The position numbers were made by a program, and so were the translations under genes. DNA of 64,000 nt from Sphingobium fuliginis (GTDB lineage Bacteria > Pseudomonadota > Alphaproteobacteria > Sphingomonadales > Sphingomonadaceae): contig NZ_SEON01000004.1 in NCBI RefSeq assembly GCF_004152845.1, positions 186,001 through 250,000 of the forward strand, in the 5' to 3' direction. The notes beneath the pieces are model-generated. The model saw only the letters and a program-made list of their open reading frames with translations, was not told where the DNA came from and did not search any database. Position 1 is the stretch's first letter; each line of letters begins with the position of its first letter. Positions 46,679-52,501 of this stretch are shown here, in pieces.

Positions 46679-47178
46679 TCGATCCAGGTGGTAATGACCG
46701 CTTCCGTAAGAAGCCGCCGTCGCCACGAAGCTCAGGGAATGGCGGCTTTGTCCGACATTGCAGCCACGAGCACGAGCTGATTTTATGTCCGCTTTCGGTA
46801 GATCGGCCCAGATGCTTCCACGACCGAAGTGGGGCGCTTTGCCGACCTTCTGCTTTCCCCTCAGCGATAGGCAGGTTTTGGTTTGATGCGACATTCACTG
46901 CTGCAAGCCTGAGCGACCGGGTCTGGTCGGCAGTCGCCAACATAGCCGACCTTCATGGCCCCGAAGACGATTGCCGTTGGTTCATTCAGCCTAGCCGGGG
47001 CTATTCGTGTTCATCTGTAGGGCGACAGCCAAAGTGACCGCAATGGGCGCTGGAAGTCTGGTTTCTGGAGGCAGCTGCCCATTCAGCGCTGGTCATCCGG
47101 CGGTAGATGGATTCGACCTGCCGGATCCTGTCTGCGAATTGCGCGTTTGGAATAACGATAAAGGAGGAGGCTCCTGTG
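46679..47178. other. Non-coding, repeat-like stretch
   Basis: About 500 nt without a convincing gene. It contains short motifs that recur elsewhere in the window, such as a 19-mer at 46936 and segments like TGTCCGCTTT. It looks like the degenerate intergenic repeat material common between accessory genes of sphingomonads. Confidence 0.4.
46936..46954. repeat. Dispersed 19-mer, copy 1
   Basis: GCCAACATAGCCGACCTTC. It differs from copy 3 (48984) at two positions and is followed by similar flanking text. Confidence 0.45.
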
Positions 47179-47550
47179 ATGATCCATCACGTATCGCTCG
47201 GCACCAACGACGCTGATCGCGCAATCCGCTTCTACGATCCAGTGCTCGCGGTAATTGGAATGTCGCGCCGGAGCCTGAAGGGTGGGTCGGTTGGATATGG
47301 CAGCGCCGCACACGAATATCTTTTCGCTCTGGAGAAGCCTGTCGATGGTAAGCCGGCGACCGTTGGTAACGGTGTGCACATCGCGTTGGCCGCTGCTCGT
47401 CGGACGGTTTACCGGGTCGCTCTCGCCAATGGTGGCACAGACGGCGGCGCACCTGCCCTACGGCCTGAATACGATGGCAATTATTACGGAGCCTTCGTTC
47501 ACGATCTCGATGGCAACAAGATTGAGGTCGTCACCTACTCGGCAAGCTAG
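47179..47550 (+). CDS. VOC (glyoxalase) family protein
   Basis: 123 residues, a single-chain VOC unit. MIHHVSLGTNDADRAIRFYD gives the first metal-type His, GNGVHIALAA the second, and HDLDGNKIEVVTYS the C-terminal Glu. It probably acts on a small reactive metabolite. AAGGAGGAGG precedes the ATG pair; the frame upstream to 47107 is not supported. Confidence 0.85.
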   Translation: MIHHVSLGTNDADRAIRFYDPVLAVIGMSRRSLKGGSVGYGSAAHEYLFALEKPVDGKPATVGNGVHIALAAARRTVYRVALANGGTDGGAPALRPEYDGNYYGAFVHDLDGNKIEVVTYSAS

Positions 47551-47565
47551 CCATGGCCCGGGGTC

Positions 47566-47584
47566 GCCGACATAGCGGTCGTTC
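47566..47584. repeat. Dispersed 19-mer, copy 2
   Basis: GCCGACATAGCGGTCGTTC, 16 nt after the glyoxalase stop. It differs from copy 3 at two positions. Confidence 0.45.
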
Positions 47585-47666
47585 TCGGGGTCAGCAGCAC
47601 TCGTGATACCTGCGGGTCGTACATATGGTGAACCGGCTTCCCAGAAATATCAGGAAGCCGGAAATT

Positions 47667-48299
47667 TCAAATTTCAGTCCGTTCGGACAGCGTCAGAGCA
47701 TCATCGACATCTACGCCGAGGTATCTGACTGTATTTTCGATGTTGGTATGGCCAAGCAGGATTTGCACAGCGCGGAGATTGCCTGTGGTTTTATAGATCA
47801 GCGCCGCCTTGGTCCGTCGCATCGAGTGCGTGCCATACTCTCGTCTGTCGAGGCCGATCGTCGAGACCCATTCGTCGACGAGACGCGCATATTGCCGTGT
47901 GCTCAAATGACCAAGGTAATCGATCCTGCTTGGGAATACGAAGTCGCGGATCGTCCCGCCGCGCCGATCAAGCCATGCTTTGAGGCTCTTACGTGCCTCG
48001 GTCATGATCTCGAATTGCACCGGACGACCGGTCTTTTGCTGGATAACCGTCGCGCGATCGCGAAATGACCCTGCGCTCATCAGGTCGCCTATCCTGATCT
48101 TGACCAGGTCGCAGCCACGCAATTTGCTGTCAATCGCAAGATCGAACAGGGCCCGGTCGCGCAGGCGCCTGTGTTCGTCTAGATAGAAACGGATTGCCCA
48201 GATATCGCGCGGCTTCAGAGGGCGCTTCGGCCCCACATTCTGCCCTGCATTCCAAGGGCGCCGATCATGTATGGCGGGGTCGAGGTCCGAATGTCCCAT
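47667..48299 (-). CDS. Tyrosine-type site-specific recombinase (compact, 210 residues)
   Basis: The full catalytic set is present: Arg61 in DSKLRGCDLVKI, Lys89 in QQKTGRP, His158 and Arg161 in THSMRRTKAA, His184 in LLGHTNIE and the nucleophile Tyr193 in TVRYLGV. It lacks the long N-terminal arm-binding domain of phage integrases. It is probably a mobile or plasmid-type recombinase. A broken paralogue of the same type lies at 55504-56135 in the opposite orientation. Confidence 0.87.
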   Translation of the reverse strand: MGHSDLDPAIHDRRPWNAGQNVGPKRPLKPRDIWAIRFYLDEHRRLRDRALFDLAIDSKLRGCDLVKIRIGDLMSAGSFRDRATVIQQKTGRPVQFEIMTEARKSLKAWLDRRGGTIRDFVFPSRIDYLGHLSTRQYARLVDEWVSTIGLDRREYGTHSMRRTKAALIYKTTGNLRAVQILLGHTNIENTVRYLGVDVDDALTLSERTEI

Positions 48300-48381
48300 G
48301 ATAGTTCTCCGATAGCCGGAATTGGCCGATCGGAAGGTATCGGAACGTTGCTATGTTCGGCGACTGGAGCCTCGCGGCATC

Positions 48382-48399
48382 TTGCCAAATTTTGCCAAA
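48382..48399. promoter_or_regulatory. Direct repeat TTGCCAAA x2, possible ParD operator
   Basis: TTGCCAAA occurs at 48382-48389 and 48392-48399, spaced 10 bp (one helical turn), 19 nt upstream of the parD start. Confidence 0.4.
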
Positions 48400-48417
48400 C
48401 CTCCTATATCATAGTCC

Positions 48418-48654
48418 ATGTCGACGATGAACATCTCGCTTCCGGATGCGCTCAAGGCGTTTGTTGACCAGCAGGTCAACATGCGTGGTTATGGCACGAG
48501 CAGTGAGTATGTGCGGGAATTGATCCGTAAGGACCAGGACATTCAGCGCCTTCGTGAAATGCTCTTGGACGGCGGCAGTTCTGAAGCCTCAGCACCGGCC
48601 GATGCCGGATATTTTCAAGGCCTTCGTGACCGTGTGGCGCAACGCGCCGGGTAG
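48418..48654 (+). CDS. parD: Ribbon-helix-helix antitoxin ParD
   Basis: 78 residues. TMNISLPDALKAFVDQQVNM and GTSSEYVRELIRKDQD are the typical RHH DNA-binding part of ParD; the C-terminal tail (AGYFQGLRDRVAQRAG) binds the toxin. It is coupled to parE (TAGTG overlap). Confidence 0.85.
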   Translation: MSTMNISLPDALKAFVDQQVNMRGYGTSSEYVRELIRKDQDIQRLREMLLDGGSSEASAPADAGYFQGLRDRVAQRAG

Positions 48655-48980
48655 TGACTGCAAAACCGATCATACCGCGCGCCAAAGCGCGGGCGGATGT
48701 CGACCTTGCGGTCGAACATTACGCTGATGTAGCCGGCGCTGATGCCGCCTTCGGCTTCATTGATGCACTTGAACAGGCCTATACTTTCATCGGGGAAATG
48801 CCGGCGGCAGGCTCTCCGCGATGGTCTCACGAGCTGAACTTACCCGGGTTGAGAACCATAGGGCTTAAAGGATTTCCTTGGCTAGTTTTCTACCTTGAAT
48901 TCGAGACCCATGTGGATGTCTGGCGCGTGCTTCATGCCAAGCGGGACATGCCAGCTTGGTTGGTCGATGTAGACGATTAA
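48654..48980 (+). CDS. parE: ParE/RelE-fold toxin
   Basis: 108 residues starting with GTG inside the parD stop. ARADVDLAVEHYADVAGADAA, LEQAYTFIGEMPAAGSPRW and LPGLRTIGLKGFPWLVFYLE match the ParE toxin fold, whose members attack DNA gyrase. HVDVWRVLHAKRDMP is the usual C-terminal strand. Confidence 0.85.
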   Translation: MTAKPIIPRAKARADVDLAVEHYADVAGADAAFGFIDALEQAYTFIGEMPAAGSPRWSHELNLPGLRTIGLKGFPWLVFYLEFETHVDVWRVLHAKRDMPAWLVDVDD

Positions 48981-49312
48981 ACCGCCAACATAGCCGTCGT
49001 TCGCGGCGGTTCGCCTGAGCGTCGAAACCGGCCGTTCATTCACGCGGCGAGTTATGGCGCCTTCTGGGCGGACAGCCGACGGGCCGCTTTTGGAACTCGA
49101 ACTGCGAAATCGGACATTGCATTCGATCGCACGAACGGCCGCATCTGGGCCGACCGGGTACTTACAGGTTGGGAAGGCAGCTGGGAAAATCAGCCGCTGC
49201 GCGCTTATCCTTCGCAGAACGAAGCCGCTGAACCAATACATCCAGCAGCCCGTCCAGTCCCCCGATAGACGTTCGGGTCTTTCATTAATTGAGATGGCCC
49301 TTCCGTAGCGGT
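48981..49312. other. Non-coding, repeat-like stretch
   Basis: About 330 nt between parE and the AhpD-like gene. It begins with the third 19-mer copy (48984) and contains sequence like that at 46679-47178. I see no gene. Confidence 0.4.
48984..49002. repeat. Dispersed 19-mer, copy 3
   Basis: GCCAACATAGCCGTCGTTC, immediately after the parE stop. Confidence 0.45.
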
Positions 49313-49768
49313 TCACGCCTGCGCCTTGACGGGCAACCGAAATGGTGCGCCAAGGCGATTGAAGGCATTCATTGCCGCAATGGCGATGGTGAGATCCACG
49401 AGGTCCTTCGGTTCAAATACCGCCGAAGCAGCTGCATATGCTTCGTCCGAAGCATGTGTTTCGCTGACGAGCGTAACCTCCTCGGCCCAAGCCAGCGCGG
49501 CGCGGTATTGCTCCGGAAAAAGATGCGGAACTTCCGCCCAGACCGGGATCAAGGCAACTTTGTCGACCGGCATCGTCTTGAGTAGGTCGCGCGTGTGGAG
49601 GTCGATGCAATGCGCGCAGCCATTGATTTGCGAAACCCGCAGGAACACGAGATGTATAAGTTCCTCCGGCAGGTTGGTGCCGGTTGTCACGTAGTGATGG
49701 ATACCGAACAACGCCTTCGCGCCCTGTGGCGCGATCTCGTGCCAGATCAGCCGTTTCGTTTCGCTCAT
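49313..49768 (-). CDS. Carboxymuconolactone decarboxylase/AhpD-family protein
   Basis: 151 residues. The redox motif is QINGCAHCIDLHTRDLL with CxxC and His, as in AhpD-type alkylhydroperoxidases. MSETKRLIWHEIAPQGAKAL is the usual start. The ATG at 49768 follows AAGGA at good spacing. It is divergent from an ECF41-type sigma factor and has a matching promoter; such pairs are the standard ECF41 arrangement. Confidence 0.87.
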   Translation of the reverse strand: MSETKRLIWHEIAPQGAKALFGIHHYVTTGTNLPEELIHLVFLRVSQINGCAHCIDLHTRDLLKTMPVDKVALIPVWAEVPHLFPEQYRAALAWAEEVTLVSETHASDEAYAAASAVFEPKDLVDLTIAIAAMNAFNRLGAPFRLPVKAQA

Positions 49769-49815
49769 CATCATGTCCTTGGCCTGTGGCGCCATTCAGC
49801 GGCGCTCGCGGACTT

Positions 49816-49842
49816 GACGAGGCAAGACGGGCAAGTGTGACA
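49816..49842 (-). promoter_or_regulatory. ECF41-type promoter of the AhpD-like gene
   Basis: On the minus strand TGTCACA (49842-49836) and CGTC (49819-49816) are separated by 16 nt, matching the ECF41 consensus. It lies 48 nt upstream of the start at 49768. Confidence 0.72.
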
Positions 49843-49877
49843 TCTTCGGAGAAATTTTTCGTGAATGGCCGGGTTTA

Positions 49878-49904
49878 TGTCACAACCGGGCACGCTGCAT
49901 CGTC
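49878..49904 (+). promoter_or_regulatory. ECF41-type promoter of the sigma factor gene
   Basis: TGTCACA (49878-49884), a 16-nt spacer and CGTC (49901-49904), upstream of the GTG at 49934. It indicates autoregulation. Confidence 0.72.
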
Positions 49905-49933
49905 TTGTACACATGACCATGAAGGAGACATTG

Positions 49934-50857
49934 GTGTCGACGCGCGCCGGCGGAAATGCCGCCGACCGACGGACGGCGAGACGTGAACAGCGCATCTCCG
50001 GATATGAGGCCGAACGCAATCGATTGCATCGGCTCGCATACCGAATGCTCGGCTCCCACAGCGATGCCGAGGATGTTATGCAAGATGCCTGGCTGCGCTG
50101 GGAAGGGATCGAAGATGATATCGACTTCCCTACGACCTATCTGACCCGGATTGTCACCCGCTTGTGCCTCGACCGCAAGAAATCGGCGCGCGCACAACGC
50201 GAGACCTATATAGGTCCGTGGCTACCCGATCCGCTGATCGGGTCCGTCGAGCCGGACGAAACAATCGCCGACGACATAACTGTCACGCTTATGCTGGCGA
50301 TGGAGCGCCTGTCGCCGCTGGAGCGGGCGGCCTTCCTTCTTCATGACGTGTTCGACGTGGCATTGCCCGAGGTGGCCATAACCCTGGGTCGAGAGCCTGC
50401 CGCCGTCCGTCAACTCGCTTCACGAGCCCGCAAACATGTTCAGGCTGCGCGACCGAGGTTCGCCGTTGAGCCTGCCGAAGCAGACAGGCTTGCACGCGCC
50501 TTTTTCACCGCCGCGCGGGATGGAGATACGACCCGACTTTCGAAAATCCTGGCGGAGGACGTCGAGATTCATACCGATGGCGGTGGTAAGGTACTCGCTT
50601 TCCGCAATGTCGTGCGGGGGATCGAGTTTGCGCTGCGTGTCTTTGCCGGAGTACGTCGCAAGAACGCGCCACCGCCCAGATTGCTTCGCACCGTAATGAT
50701 CGATGGCTTGCCCGGCTACATCAGCCGCAATCAGGGCGGCGCACTGCAAACGACGGCACTCGACCTGCAGGACGGCAAAATCGTCGCGATCTACATAGTT
50801 AAGAACCCCGATAAGCTTGCCCACATTTCGTCCACAATCCAAACCAGCCACGCTTGA
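49934..50857 (+). CDS. ECF sigma factor, ECF41 group, with SnoaL-like C-terminal domain
   Basis: 307 residues. Region 2 (AYRMLGSHSDAEDVMQDAWLRW) and region 4 (MERLSPLERAAFLLHDVFDV, LPEVAITLGREPAAVRQLAS) are clear. The three ECF41 marks are present: WLPDPL in the linker, DGGGK and the final NPDKL in the C-terminal SnoaL-like domain, which replaces an anti-sigma factor. The GTG at 49934 was chosen because AAGGAG lies 6 nt before it and the predicted promoter ends at 49904; earlier ATGs (49865, 49913) would fall inside or too near the promoter. Confidence 0.9.
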   Translation: MSTRAGGNAADRRTARREQRISGYEAERNRLHRLAYRMLGSHSDAEDVMQDAWLRWEGIEDDIDFPTTYLTRIVTRLCLDRKKSARAQRETYIGPWLPDPLIGSVEPDETIADDITVTLMLAMERLSPLERAAFLLHDVFDVALPEVAITLGREPAAVRQLASRARKHVQAARPRFAVEPAEADRLARAFFTAARDGDTTRLSKILAEDVEIHTDGGGKVLAFRNVVRGIEFALRVFAGVRRKNAPPPRLLRTVMIDGLPGYISRNQGGALQTTALDLQDGKIVAIYIVKNPDKLAHISSTIQTSHA

Positions 50858-51034
50858 AAGGTGATGGTCGTACACGTTCTACGGTTGGCCGCACCAGGGC
50901 ACCACTTAGAGCAGGATGAACGAGTATCAGTTTAGGACATGTCGGCCCAAGCTGAGCGACTGGGATTGGGGCTCATAGCAGCTGACGAGCTGAAGGCGTT
51001 GCTGATCGACTGCTAACGACGTCCTTGCGGGCGT

Positions 51035-51964
51035 TCATACGGGTGCGATTTCCAGCCCGATCTTCTTCCTGAAAGCGCCCGGCGTCTGGCCGGTTTCCTT
51101 TTTGAACGCGCGATTGAACGCTGCCGGCGACTCATAGCCGATGCTGCGGGAGACCTCCGCCAGAGCTGTGCCACGCCTCTGGATCATCCGCGTCGCCCGA
51201 TATATGCGCCAGTGGGTCAGATACTCCAACGGCGTACGGCCGACCACGACCTTGAACCGGGCCGCAAACGCTGATCGCGACATTCCCGCTTCCCGCGCGA
51301 GAGCTTCGACAGTCCAATCCCGCCCGGGCTCCGCATGAACGGCCTTTATGGCCTGCGCCAGATTGCGGTCGGCGAGCGCCGCCAGCCATCCGTGCGTGGG
51401 ACCGCCAGGCTGCGACGCGAGCGCGCGTATGGCATGGACGAACAGCAGCTCGAAGAGCCGGCTCGTGACCGCCTCGGAGCCAAGACCCGGCGCCTCGGTC
51501 TCCGCTGCAAGCAGCTCGAGGACTGACTGGAAGGCAAGCGACCGGTTCTGATCGAGCTTTAGATGAAGCAGCTTCGGCAACACGGCGAGAAGCGGCTGGG
51601 CATCGAGCGCGTCGATCTCGAAAGCGCCGCTCACAAAGGTGGTGAGCGCGCCCCCGCCGCCTAGCTCTATCCGATGCCCCACGCGCAGCTTCTCCACGTC
51701 GACACAGTCGATCATCTGCGAGCCTTCATGGTCGAACAGGCGATAGGGCTCGTCATCTAGCATGATGAAGACATCGCCGCCGCGCAGCGGGATCGGTTCG
51801 GCATTGTTCCCCGAAATCAGGATTCCCGATCCTCGCACCACGAGCACGAACTTCACGGCCTGCTCGCCTTTGGACATGAAGCCCCAGGGCGCGGTCGCAT
51901 CGAGCCGCGTGAAGCCCGCCTTGCGAATGCGCATTTGCGTGAAGATCTCTGTCAGAGGGTCCAT
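51035..51964 (-). CDS. AraC-family transcriptional regulator (cupin_6 type)
   Basis: 309 residues. A cupin-like sensor (VKFVLVVRGSGILISGNNAE) precedes the two-HTH AraC domain (WTVEALAREAGMSRSAFAAR, then TRMIQRRGTALAEVSRSIGY). It is divergent from the SnoaL-like gene at 52067 and probably controls it and the SDR. AAGGATGG lies 7 nt before the ATG at 51964. Confidence 0.87.
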   Translation of the reverse strand: MDPLTEIFTQMRIRKAGFTRLDATAPWGFMSKGEQAVKFVLVVRGSGILISGNNAEPIPLRGGDVFIMLDDEPYRLFDHEGSQMIDCVDVEKLRVGHRIELGGGGALTTFVSGAFEIDALDAQPLLAVLPKLLHLKLDQNRSLAFQSVLELLAAETEAPGLGSEAVTSRLFELLFVHAIRALASQPGGPTHGWLAALADRNLAQAIKAVHAEPGRDWTVEALAREAGMSRSAFAARFKVVVGRTPLEYLTHWRIYRATRMIQRRGTALAEVSRSIGYESPAAFNRAFKKETGQTPGAFRKKIGLEIAPV

Positions 51965-52066
51965 GATCAGCCATCCTTCTGGACGATAGAGCAACAAATA
52001 TGGCGGTCTGATATCTATACGTTTCTACTCCTTGGCGCAATATCAGTCACAGAAAGGAGACCGGCG

Positions 52067-52501
52067 ATGGATACCGCCATAGACAATATCGAGCAGGTTC
52101 GGCGCGCCAAGGCGCGCTACGCCCGCTTCCTCGACACCAAGGATTGGGACGGTTTCGCCGACCTCTTCGAGCCGGCGGTCGAGGTGCGCATGTTCGATCC
52201 GGCGGGGAACCTGGTCGTTTCCCACGACGACCGCGACAGCTTCGTGGCTGCGGCCCGGGCCGGGCTCGAAGGCGGGCAGTCGATCCACCAGATGCACAAC
52301 GACGAAATAGATCAGATCTCCGATACCGAGATTTCCGCGACTTGGTCGATGGAGGACATGATCATCTTCCGCCCGGGGTCGGAAGGGCCGCGCCGGATGC
52401 ACGGCTATGGGCACTATCACGAGCTCTGGCGCCTGGGGACCGACGGCTGGCGGATCACGCGTCTCGAGCTTCGCCGCACCATCCTCGAGTTCACGGAATA
52501 G
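52067..52501 (+). CDS. SnoaL/NTF2-like protein
   Basis: 144 residues. RRAKARYARFLDTKDWDGFADLFEP is the N-terminal helix of this fold, followed by HQMHNDEIDQISDTEISATW and GHYHELWRLGTDGWRITRLE. It could be a dehydratase/isomerase-like enzyme or a binding protein. AAAGGAGA precedes the ATG at 52067. The broken MDR gene follows 9 nt after its stop. Confidence 0.83.
   Translation: MDTAIDNIEQVRRAKARYARFLDTKDWDGFADLFEPAVEVRMFDPAGNLVVSHDDRDSFVAAARAGLEGGQSIHQMHNDEIDQISDTEISATWSMEDMIIFRPGSEGPRRMHGYGHYHELWRLGTDGWRITRLELRRTILEFTE

Follow-up and report, generated by a model that had tools for sequence, protein, structure and literature searches.

The stretch at 49816-49904 of the window, by which we mean the whole 64,000-nucleotide piece of Sphingobium fuliginis DNA that was analysed, separates a gene for an AhpD-like protein of the CMD family from a divergently oriented gene for an ECF41 sigma factor. 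It carries two copies of TGTCACA-N16-CGTC, which lie on opposite strands and face apart, with 35 bp between the two 7-mers (Table 1). A search of 47000-52500 gave no Rfam family match.

Table 1. Features of the divergent locus, in window coordinates.
Feature	Position	Strand	Details
AhpD-like / CMD family protein, predicted target	49313..49768	-	151 aa; CxxC motif (CAHC); PF02627, ahpD_dom, 2gmy
ECF41-type promoter of the AhpD-like gene	49816..49842	-	TGTCACACTTGCCCGTCTTGCCTCGTC; -35 TGTCACA 49842-49836, N16, -10 CGTC 49819-49816; exact match
A/T tract, UP-like element	49852..49859	-	AAAAATTT on the - strand; 10-17 bp upstream of the - strand -35 box
ECF41-type promoter of the sigma gene	49878..49904	+	TGTCACAACCGGGCACGCTGCATCGTC; -35 TGTCACA 49878-49884, N16, -10 CGTC 49901-49904; exact match
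Shine-Dalgarno AAGGAG	49922..49927	+	6 nt before GTG 49934; same place in L004, L085, L086
ECF41 sigma factor, SigJ-type	49934..50857	+	307 aa from GTG; WLPDP linker motif; C-terminal extension; NF007214, PDB 5xe7

The sigma factor matches the SigJ subfamily model NF007214 with 353 bits (cut-off 271; residues 18-299) and M. tuberculosis SigJ (PDB 5xe7), a distant homologue whose likeness is that of the protein match, over residues 19-296 with an E value of 2.6e-47, a span that covers the C-terminal extension. Its architecture is that of ECF41 factors, with sigma2 and sigma4 as the only domains (PF04542 and PF08281 in Pfam) and a C-terminal extension of about 100 aa; no Pfam match to SnoaL was found in the protein at 1e-3. 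The extension contains DGGGK and NPDKL, which we take to be motifs of the ECF41 group. In the linker between sigma2 and sigma4, WLPDP agrees in four of five residues (E to D) with WLPEP, the ECF41 linker motif (Wecke et al., 2012, PMC3426412). ECF41 genes are further marked by linkage to a gene for a CMD protein (with a CxxC motif), an oxidoreductase or an epimerase, and by the lack of an anti-sigma gene; here the neighbour has PF02627 with CAHC, and an anti-sigma domain was found in none of the eight neighbourhood proteins scanned with Pfam. The nearest named relative comes from Sphingomonas kyeonggiensis (83%), which points to a sphingomonad as the probable host.

The neighbouring protein matches PF02627 (E 2.7e-12) and the ahpD_dom model TIGR00778 (35.5 bits, cut-off 27.8), as is expected of a CMD domain with a CxxC motif. 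Its score against the full AhpD model TIGR00777 is 20.4, below the cut-off of 191.95, and we therefore call it AhpD-like, not AhpD. The best solved relative is 2gmy (Atu0492; E 3.6e-26 for the 160-aa form), and a redox or peroxide role for this CMD protein may be supposed. Read from its first ATG, the gene would begin at 49795; the most likely start, judged from the surrounding sequence, is instead ATG 49768, seven bases past AAGGA and with an ATG at the matching place in seven related loci (L004, L005, L006, L008, L024, L085 and L086).

The promoter pair and the start of the sigma gene

The ECF41 promoter consensus is TGTCACA-n16-CGTC (Wecke et al., 2012, PMC3426412), and ECF41 loci are expected to carry it, with a spacer of 16 +/-1, at the target gene, the sigma gene or both. 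Here it stands before both genes, and the sequence-only reading, which had reported the motif on the two strands with equal spacers, was right in this respect: each site has the 7-mer, 16 bases and CGTC. With a more variable spacer (TGTCACA-N14-18-CGTC) the window holds two matches, against a mean of 0.08 and a largest count of 1 in 100 dinucleotide shuffles. There are three exact matches in the 4.6-Mb genome, two of which are the promoter pair, and the pattern read backwards occurs once. The looser pattern TGTCAC-N15-19-CGTC has 27 hits genome-wide, three of them at ECF41 loci, namely the pair and a site at a second ECF41 factor of the same genome (G000 C4:953-1777; 52% identical). This paralogue resembles the locus in its sigma group, its CMD gene and its ECF41-type promoter but differs in the co-directional CMD-ECF order, in having a single site, TGTCACG-N16-CGTC, with an 8-base A/T run, and in a CMD gene of another lineage.

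The third exact match (G000 C14:597912-597938, L001) lies 28 nt before the ATG of a gene that is presumably phytase-like. We considered it as a third ECF41 target and rejected it: the match is rarely kept in relatives, and repeats at the site look like a Pho box. Among the best 30 of 49 matches to the downstream gene (its own included) from 61 genomes of the genus, the full match upstream is kept only in its own genome and in the closest relative, L275; L274-L277 have two TGTCAY-like repeats 11 bp apart, which by their consensus we take to be a Pho box. In this comparison the reading followed the strand of the gene, and the start position in L282 was guessed. Of the other 23 looser hits, 22 lie under an open frame of more than 100 codons; in a genome so rich in GC this carries little weight.

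The locus is an ordinary ECF41 member of a layout that has been in print since 2012. The published <ECF< >COE> class comprises 55 loci (15%), with a promoter on the ECF side in 36 and on the COE side in 41 (PMC3426412), and our locus is like these in its sigma group, the class of its CMD partner, its divergent layout and the presence of TGTCACA-n16-CGTC on both genes; in the accessible parts of that paper we found no value given for the gap between the boxes. The enzyme gene was demonstrated there to be the target of other ECF41 factors, and self-control of the sigma gene from the ECF-side promoter most likely follows from the motif. Comparison of sequences thus far supports the interpretation that the sequence-only reading gave to the pair, GTG start included. 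Its proposal that the sigma gene is under its own control, with the AhpD-like gene as target, gains from the exact ECF41 consensus and from the paired layout kept in relatives, but has to be amended in that the two promoters are not equivalent, the in-register A/T tract being present on the AhpD-like side only.

The promoters were also said to fix the start of the sigma gene at GTG 49934. The frame has four in-frame starts, ATG 49913, ATG 49919, TTG 49931 and GTG 49934, and translation is most likely to begin at the last of these, with AAGGAG six nt ahead of it; GTG and AAGGAG are kept in L004, L085 and L086, and the latter two have no upstream in-frame ATG. An ATG stands one codon after the GTG position in L005, L006 and L024, and L184 has a later ATG ahead of which the frame is closed. 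'Fixes' is nonetheless too strong a word, for there is a small probability that translation starts instead at ATG 49913 or 49919, leaderless or nearly so: both are in frame, both are also found in L004, and the first of them roughly coincides with the transcription start that published leaders lead one to expect. A transcript start at about 49911-49912 would leave a 22/23-nt leader for the GTG form and almost none for the ATG forms, and the two mapped ECF41 transcripts have leaders of 22/23 nt with a ribosome site according to the text of the paper (31/32 nt in its Table 5; PMC3426412), which again argues for the GTG. The GTG lies 29 nt beyond CGTC here; the corresponding distance in S. meliloti, to what is probably the start ATG, is 32 nt.

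The paired layout and its origin among relatives

Relatives were gathered from a scan of genome contigs together with 198 close relatives, 385 genomes of the class and three distant genomes. After L033-L083 (51 of the 80 loci of the first scan, weak or partial), L114 (the same place as L172) and five copies had been dropped, 183 loci were scored, two of them (L019 and L247) with little upstream DNA. A site was defined by TGTCAC, a spacer of 16 +/-1 after the seventh base and YGTY, and at this strictness 33 loci carry two sites back to back, 116 have one on the sigma strand alone, four have one on the opposite strand alone, and 30 lack any. A tree of 180 sigma proteins, made by a quick method (three of the 183 were too short, the pair L245 among them), places the sigma factor of the window in a group of 34 rows, clade A, with an SH-aLRT value of 97. 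The pair is present in 29 of these 34; two have the enzyme side only (L021 and L023), two the sigma side only (L007 and L019) and one neither (L141). At L021 and L023 the sigma-side sequence has decayed and holds no site at this strictness, L007 has one change in the -10 of the CMD side, and at L019 the contig ends. Sequence between and around the boxes drifts within clade A while the paired layout stays. The sigma-side site precedes the start-equivalent codon by 19-102 bases in 22 of the 29 paired rows; in the remaining seven it lies 526-1206 bases ahead, with other genes or gene pieces between.

The distribution of clade A is patchy: of the 198 close relatives searched, 9 have it, with the genome of the window counted in. 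A strict scan for pairs (gap 20-50) found one in 3 of the 385 genomes of the class, again including this genome. A phage-integrase-family gene (47667-48299, minus strand) and a ParE-type toxin gene (48654-48980, plus strand) adjoin the locus, neighbours that fit such a patchy distribution.

As TGTGACA-N35-TGTCACA is an inverted repeat, the two boxes might be supposed to form an operator for a dimeric regulator instead of being promoter elements. All gaps from 31 to 39 bp, however, occur among the 29 clade A pairs, and elsewhere the gap is 2 bp (L223 and L225), 47 bp (L245) or 29 bp (L254), so that no fixed operator geometry is kept; co-directional relatives have just one box, with -10 and spacer as here, CGTC stays with the box at N16, and a transcription start has been mapped for the S. 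meliloti site (PMC6180224). We consider an operator extremely improbable. The same gaps dispose of two ideas about spacing: helical phasing of the -35 boxes, whose centres are 42 bp or four turns apart, does not agree with clade A gaps at all values from 31 to 39 bp, nor does a universal spacing of divergent pairs with the gaps of 2, 47 and 29 bp outside the clade. L223 and L225, which belong to one genus and have about 40% identity, are divergent CMD/ECF41 loci with their -35 boxes 2 bp apart, where two polymerases could presumably hardly bind together. L264, next to a divergent CMD gene, has possible face-to-face ECF41 sites (plus strand at -24 and minus strand at +37 from the start-equivalent). 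The ECF41 gene of L030, which has a site close to the consensus, comes from a contig that bears the label of a Klebsiella pneumoniae MAG; this may be an error of binning.

The nearest sisters of clade A (L093, L094, L185-L187 and L189-L191) have the co-directional order and one promoter, while no match to a CMD gene was found in L188. Those of the sisters' CMD proteins that were compared are 59-95% identical to one another and at most 46% identical to their best-scoring divergent CMD protein. Within the 29 paired rows, of which the window is one, the CMD proteins are 71-95% identical to the window's, and for the five of them that were compared identity to the best co-directional CMD protein does not exceed 46%. 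One quick tree suggests, as the simplest reading, a joint change of orientation and CMD partner at the base of the clade; the sigma factor would then have switched both its gene orientation and its enzyme partner while retaining its promoter code.

An A/T tract upstream of the -35 box

In the window the A/T run in register with the box is 8 bases long on the AhpD-like side and 3 on the sigma side. Such a run is common ahead of the -35 box in alphaproteobacterial ECF41 promoters. Among relatives we scored an A/T run of at least 5 at -20 to -9 from the box, with 200 shuffles of the upstream bases for comparison. The single-promoter set (at least 44% identity) required one site but not a CMD gene; it includes three rows of at least 64% identity (L007, L019 and L093), and one of its 84 members had too little upstream DNA. 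The run is found in 71 of the remaining 83 (shuffle mean 5.1, maximum 12), as against 12/83 at the control position -44 to -33 and 3/83 at -56 to -45, and in 63 of 75 once the set had been thinned so that the 60 bases upstream shared less than 70% identity. For the pairs, in which the -44 to -33 control overlaps the partner promoter and shuffles are the fairer control, the run is present on 19 of 29 CMD sides (shuffle mean 1.8, maximum 5) and on 6 of 29 sigma sides (mean 1.9, maximum 6), the latter a count that shuffles also reach. Loci of less than 44% identity have it in 11/32, a weak signal (mean 3.6, maximum 9). The dinucleotide CA directly precedes the box in 64/83 single promoters, 19/29 CMD sides and 14/29 sigma sides. 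Of the 27 looser hits in the genome, three have the run: the AhpD-like side (8), the paralogue (8) and the C14 site (5).

A run is absent from ten CMD sides, those of L184 and of nine rows from Bradyrhizobium, Microvirga or Azospirillum, and present on six sigma sides, those of L005 and of the rhizobial L017, L018, L020, L022 and L029. The one-sided tract therefore fails in Bradyrhizobium/Microvirga and in rhizobial rows, and is not general in clade A.

A further comparison is with S. meliloti RpoE9, for which overexpression gave one target, a co-directional CMD gene with the same promoter type and one identified start, that of the SMb20029 promoter, identified earlier by RNA-seq (PMC6180224). 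This system is like ours in its ECF41 sigma factor, its CMD target, TGTCACA-N16-CGTC and an upstream A/T tract, a 9-base run, AAAAAAATT, at -17 to -9 with CA before the box; it is unlike ours in being a co-directional CMD-sigma operon with one promoter.

In position and composition the tract is a candidate UP element, an A/T-rich site for the alpha-CTD that lies close ahead of the -35 and raises promoter activity. It is tempting to speculate, although we would put this at a little under even odds, that the tract, which often resembles GAAAAAATTT, has its centre some 14 bp ahead of TGTCACA and often has CA before the box, is a third, functional element of many alphaproteobacterial ECF41 promoters, and that in the branch of the window it came to serve a single promoter, following the change of sigma orientation and CMD partner, making an unequal feedback switch with a strong target and weak self-activation. 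The two-box ECF41 consensus leaves such a tract out. Literature searched for ECF41 with 'UP element' gave no description of it as an ECF41 feature, and A/T-rich or UP element terms are absent from the main text of Wecke et al. (2012, PMC3426412). UP elements are the subject of a general remark in PMC10880074, and in E. coli synthetic ones have restored ECF promoters that came from genomes rich in GC (PMC3817407), a paper in whose text 'ECF41' does not occur. The upstream tract, together with its one-sided placement in a divergent unit, may be the part of the locus that is new. Its use, if true, would allow better prediction of ECF41 targets and of ECF switches in synthetic biology.

A proposed working of the divergent unit

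From the observed sites, their spacing and conservation, and the protein families, we arrive with a probability of roughly 0.88 at a divergent ECF41 unit in which the sigma factor drives both the AhpD-like gene and its own gene, with the A/T tract favouring the target. The SnoaL-like extension of ECF41 factors is described as inhibitory, and activation by conformational change has been proposed (PMC8999054); by analogy, the sigma factor here would be kept at low activity by its own C-terminal extension until some signal relieved the inhibition. RNA polymerase bearing the sigma factor would then read both back-to-back promoters, one yielding the AhpD-like CxxC protein and the other the sigma gene, in a positive feedback. 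The AhpD-like gene would be expected to be transcribed more strongly than the sigma gene, since the A/T tract is in register with its promoter only.

It could be argued that the sigma factor truly acts on the AhpD-like promoter alone, the site on the ECF side being inherited but weak or idle and the sigma gene being transcribed from another, housekeeping promoter. The ECF side of the window has no in-register A/T tract, L021 and L023 have lost their ECF-side site and retained the CMD side, so that feedback appears dispensable in some members of clade A, and in published expression data the COE gene was the sole detectable target (PMC3426412). In that work, however, the native ecf41 transcript could not be separated from the overexpressed copy, and autoregulation of an ECF41 factor was for this reason not directly demonstrated. 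Against the argument, the ECF-side site departs from the consensus nowhere, the N16 spacer included, and is retained in the 29 paired rows of clade A, and a sigma-70 scan of 49200-51050, of a kind unreliable for this organism, gave one hit on the minus strand and no candidate reading into the sigma gene. We think it unlikely that the ECF-side site is idle, and prefer the reading in which the sigma factor serves both genes. The locus offers a compact natural test of ECF41 self-activation and of the use of an upstream A/T tract.

In part of the clade the unit may extend to a further enzyme. At L142 (2495-5208) the sigma gene is separated from the sigma-side promoter by an NAD(P)-binding epimerase gene and a 157-aa ORF, the latter without a hit in Pfam, and both are also matched in L087, L088, L090 and L092; L089 and L091 have pieces of the epimerase only and L141 only its end. 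In this subgroup the divergent unit would drive the CMD gene and the epimerase. Elsewhere, L005, L006 and L024 have a second CMD gene downstream of the first and on the same strand, its product 32-35% identical to that of the window.
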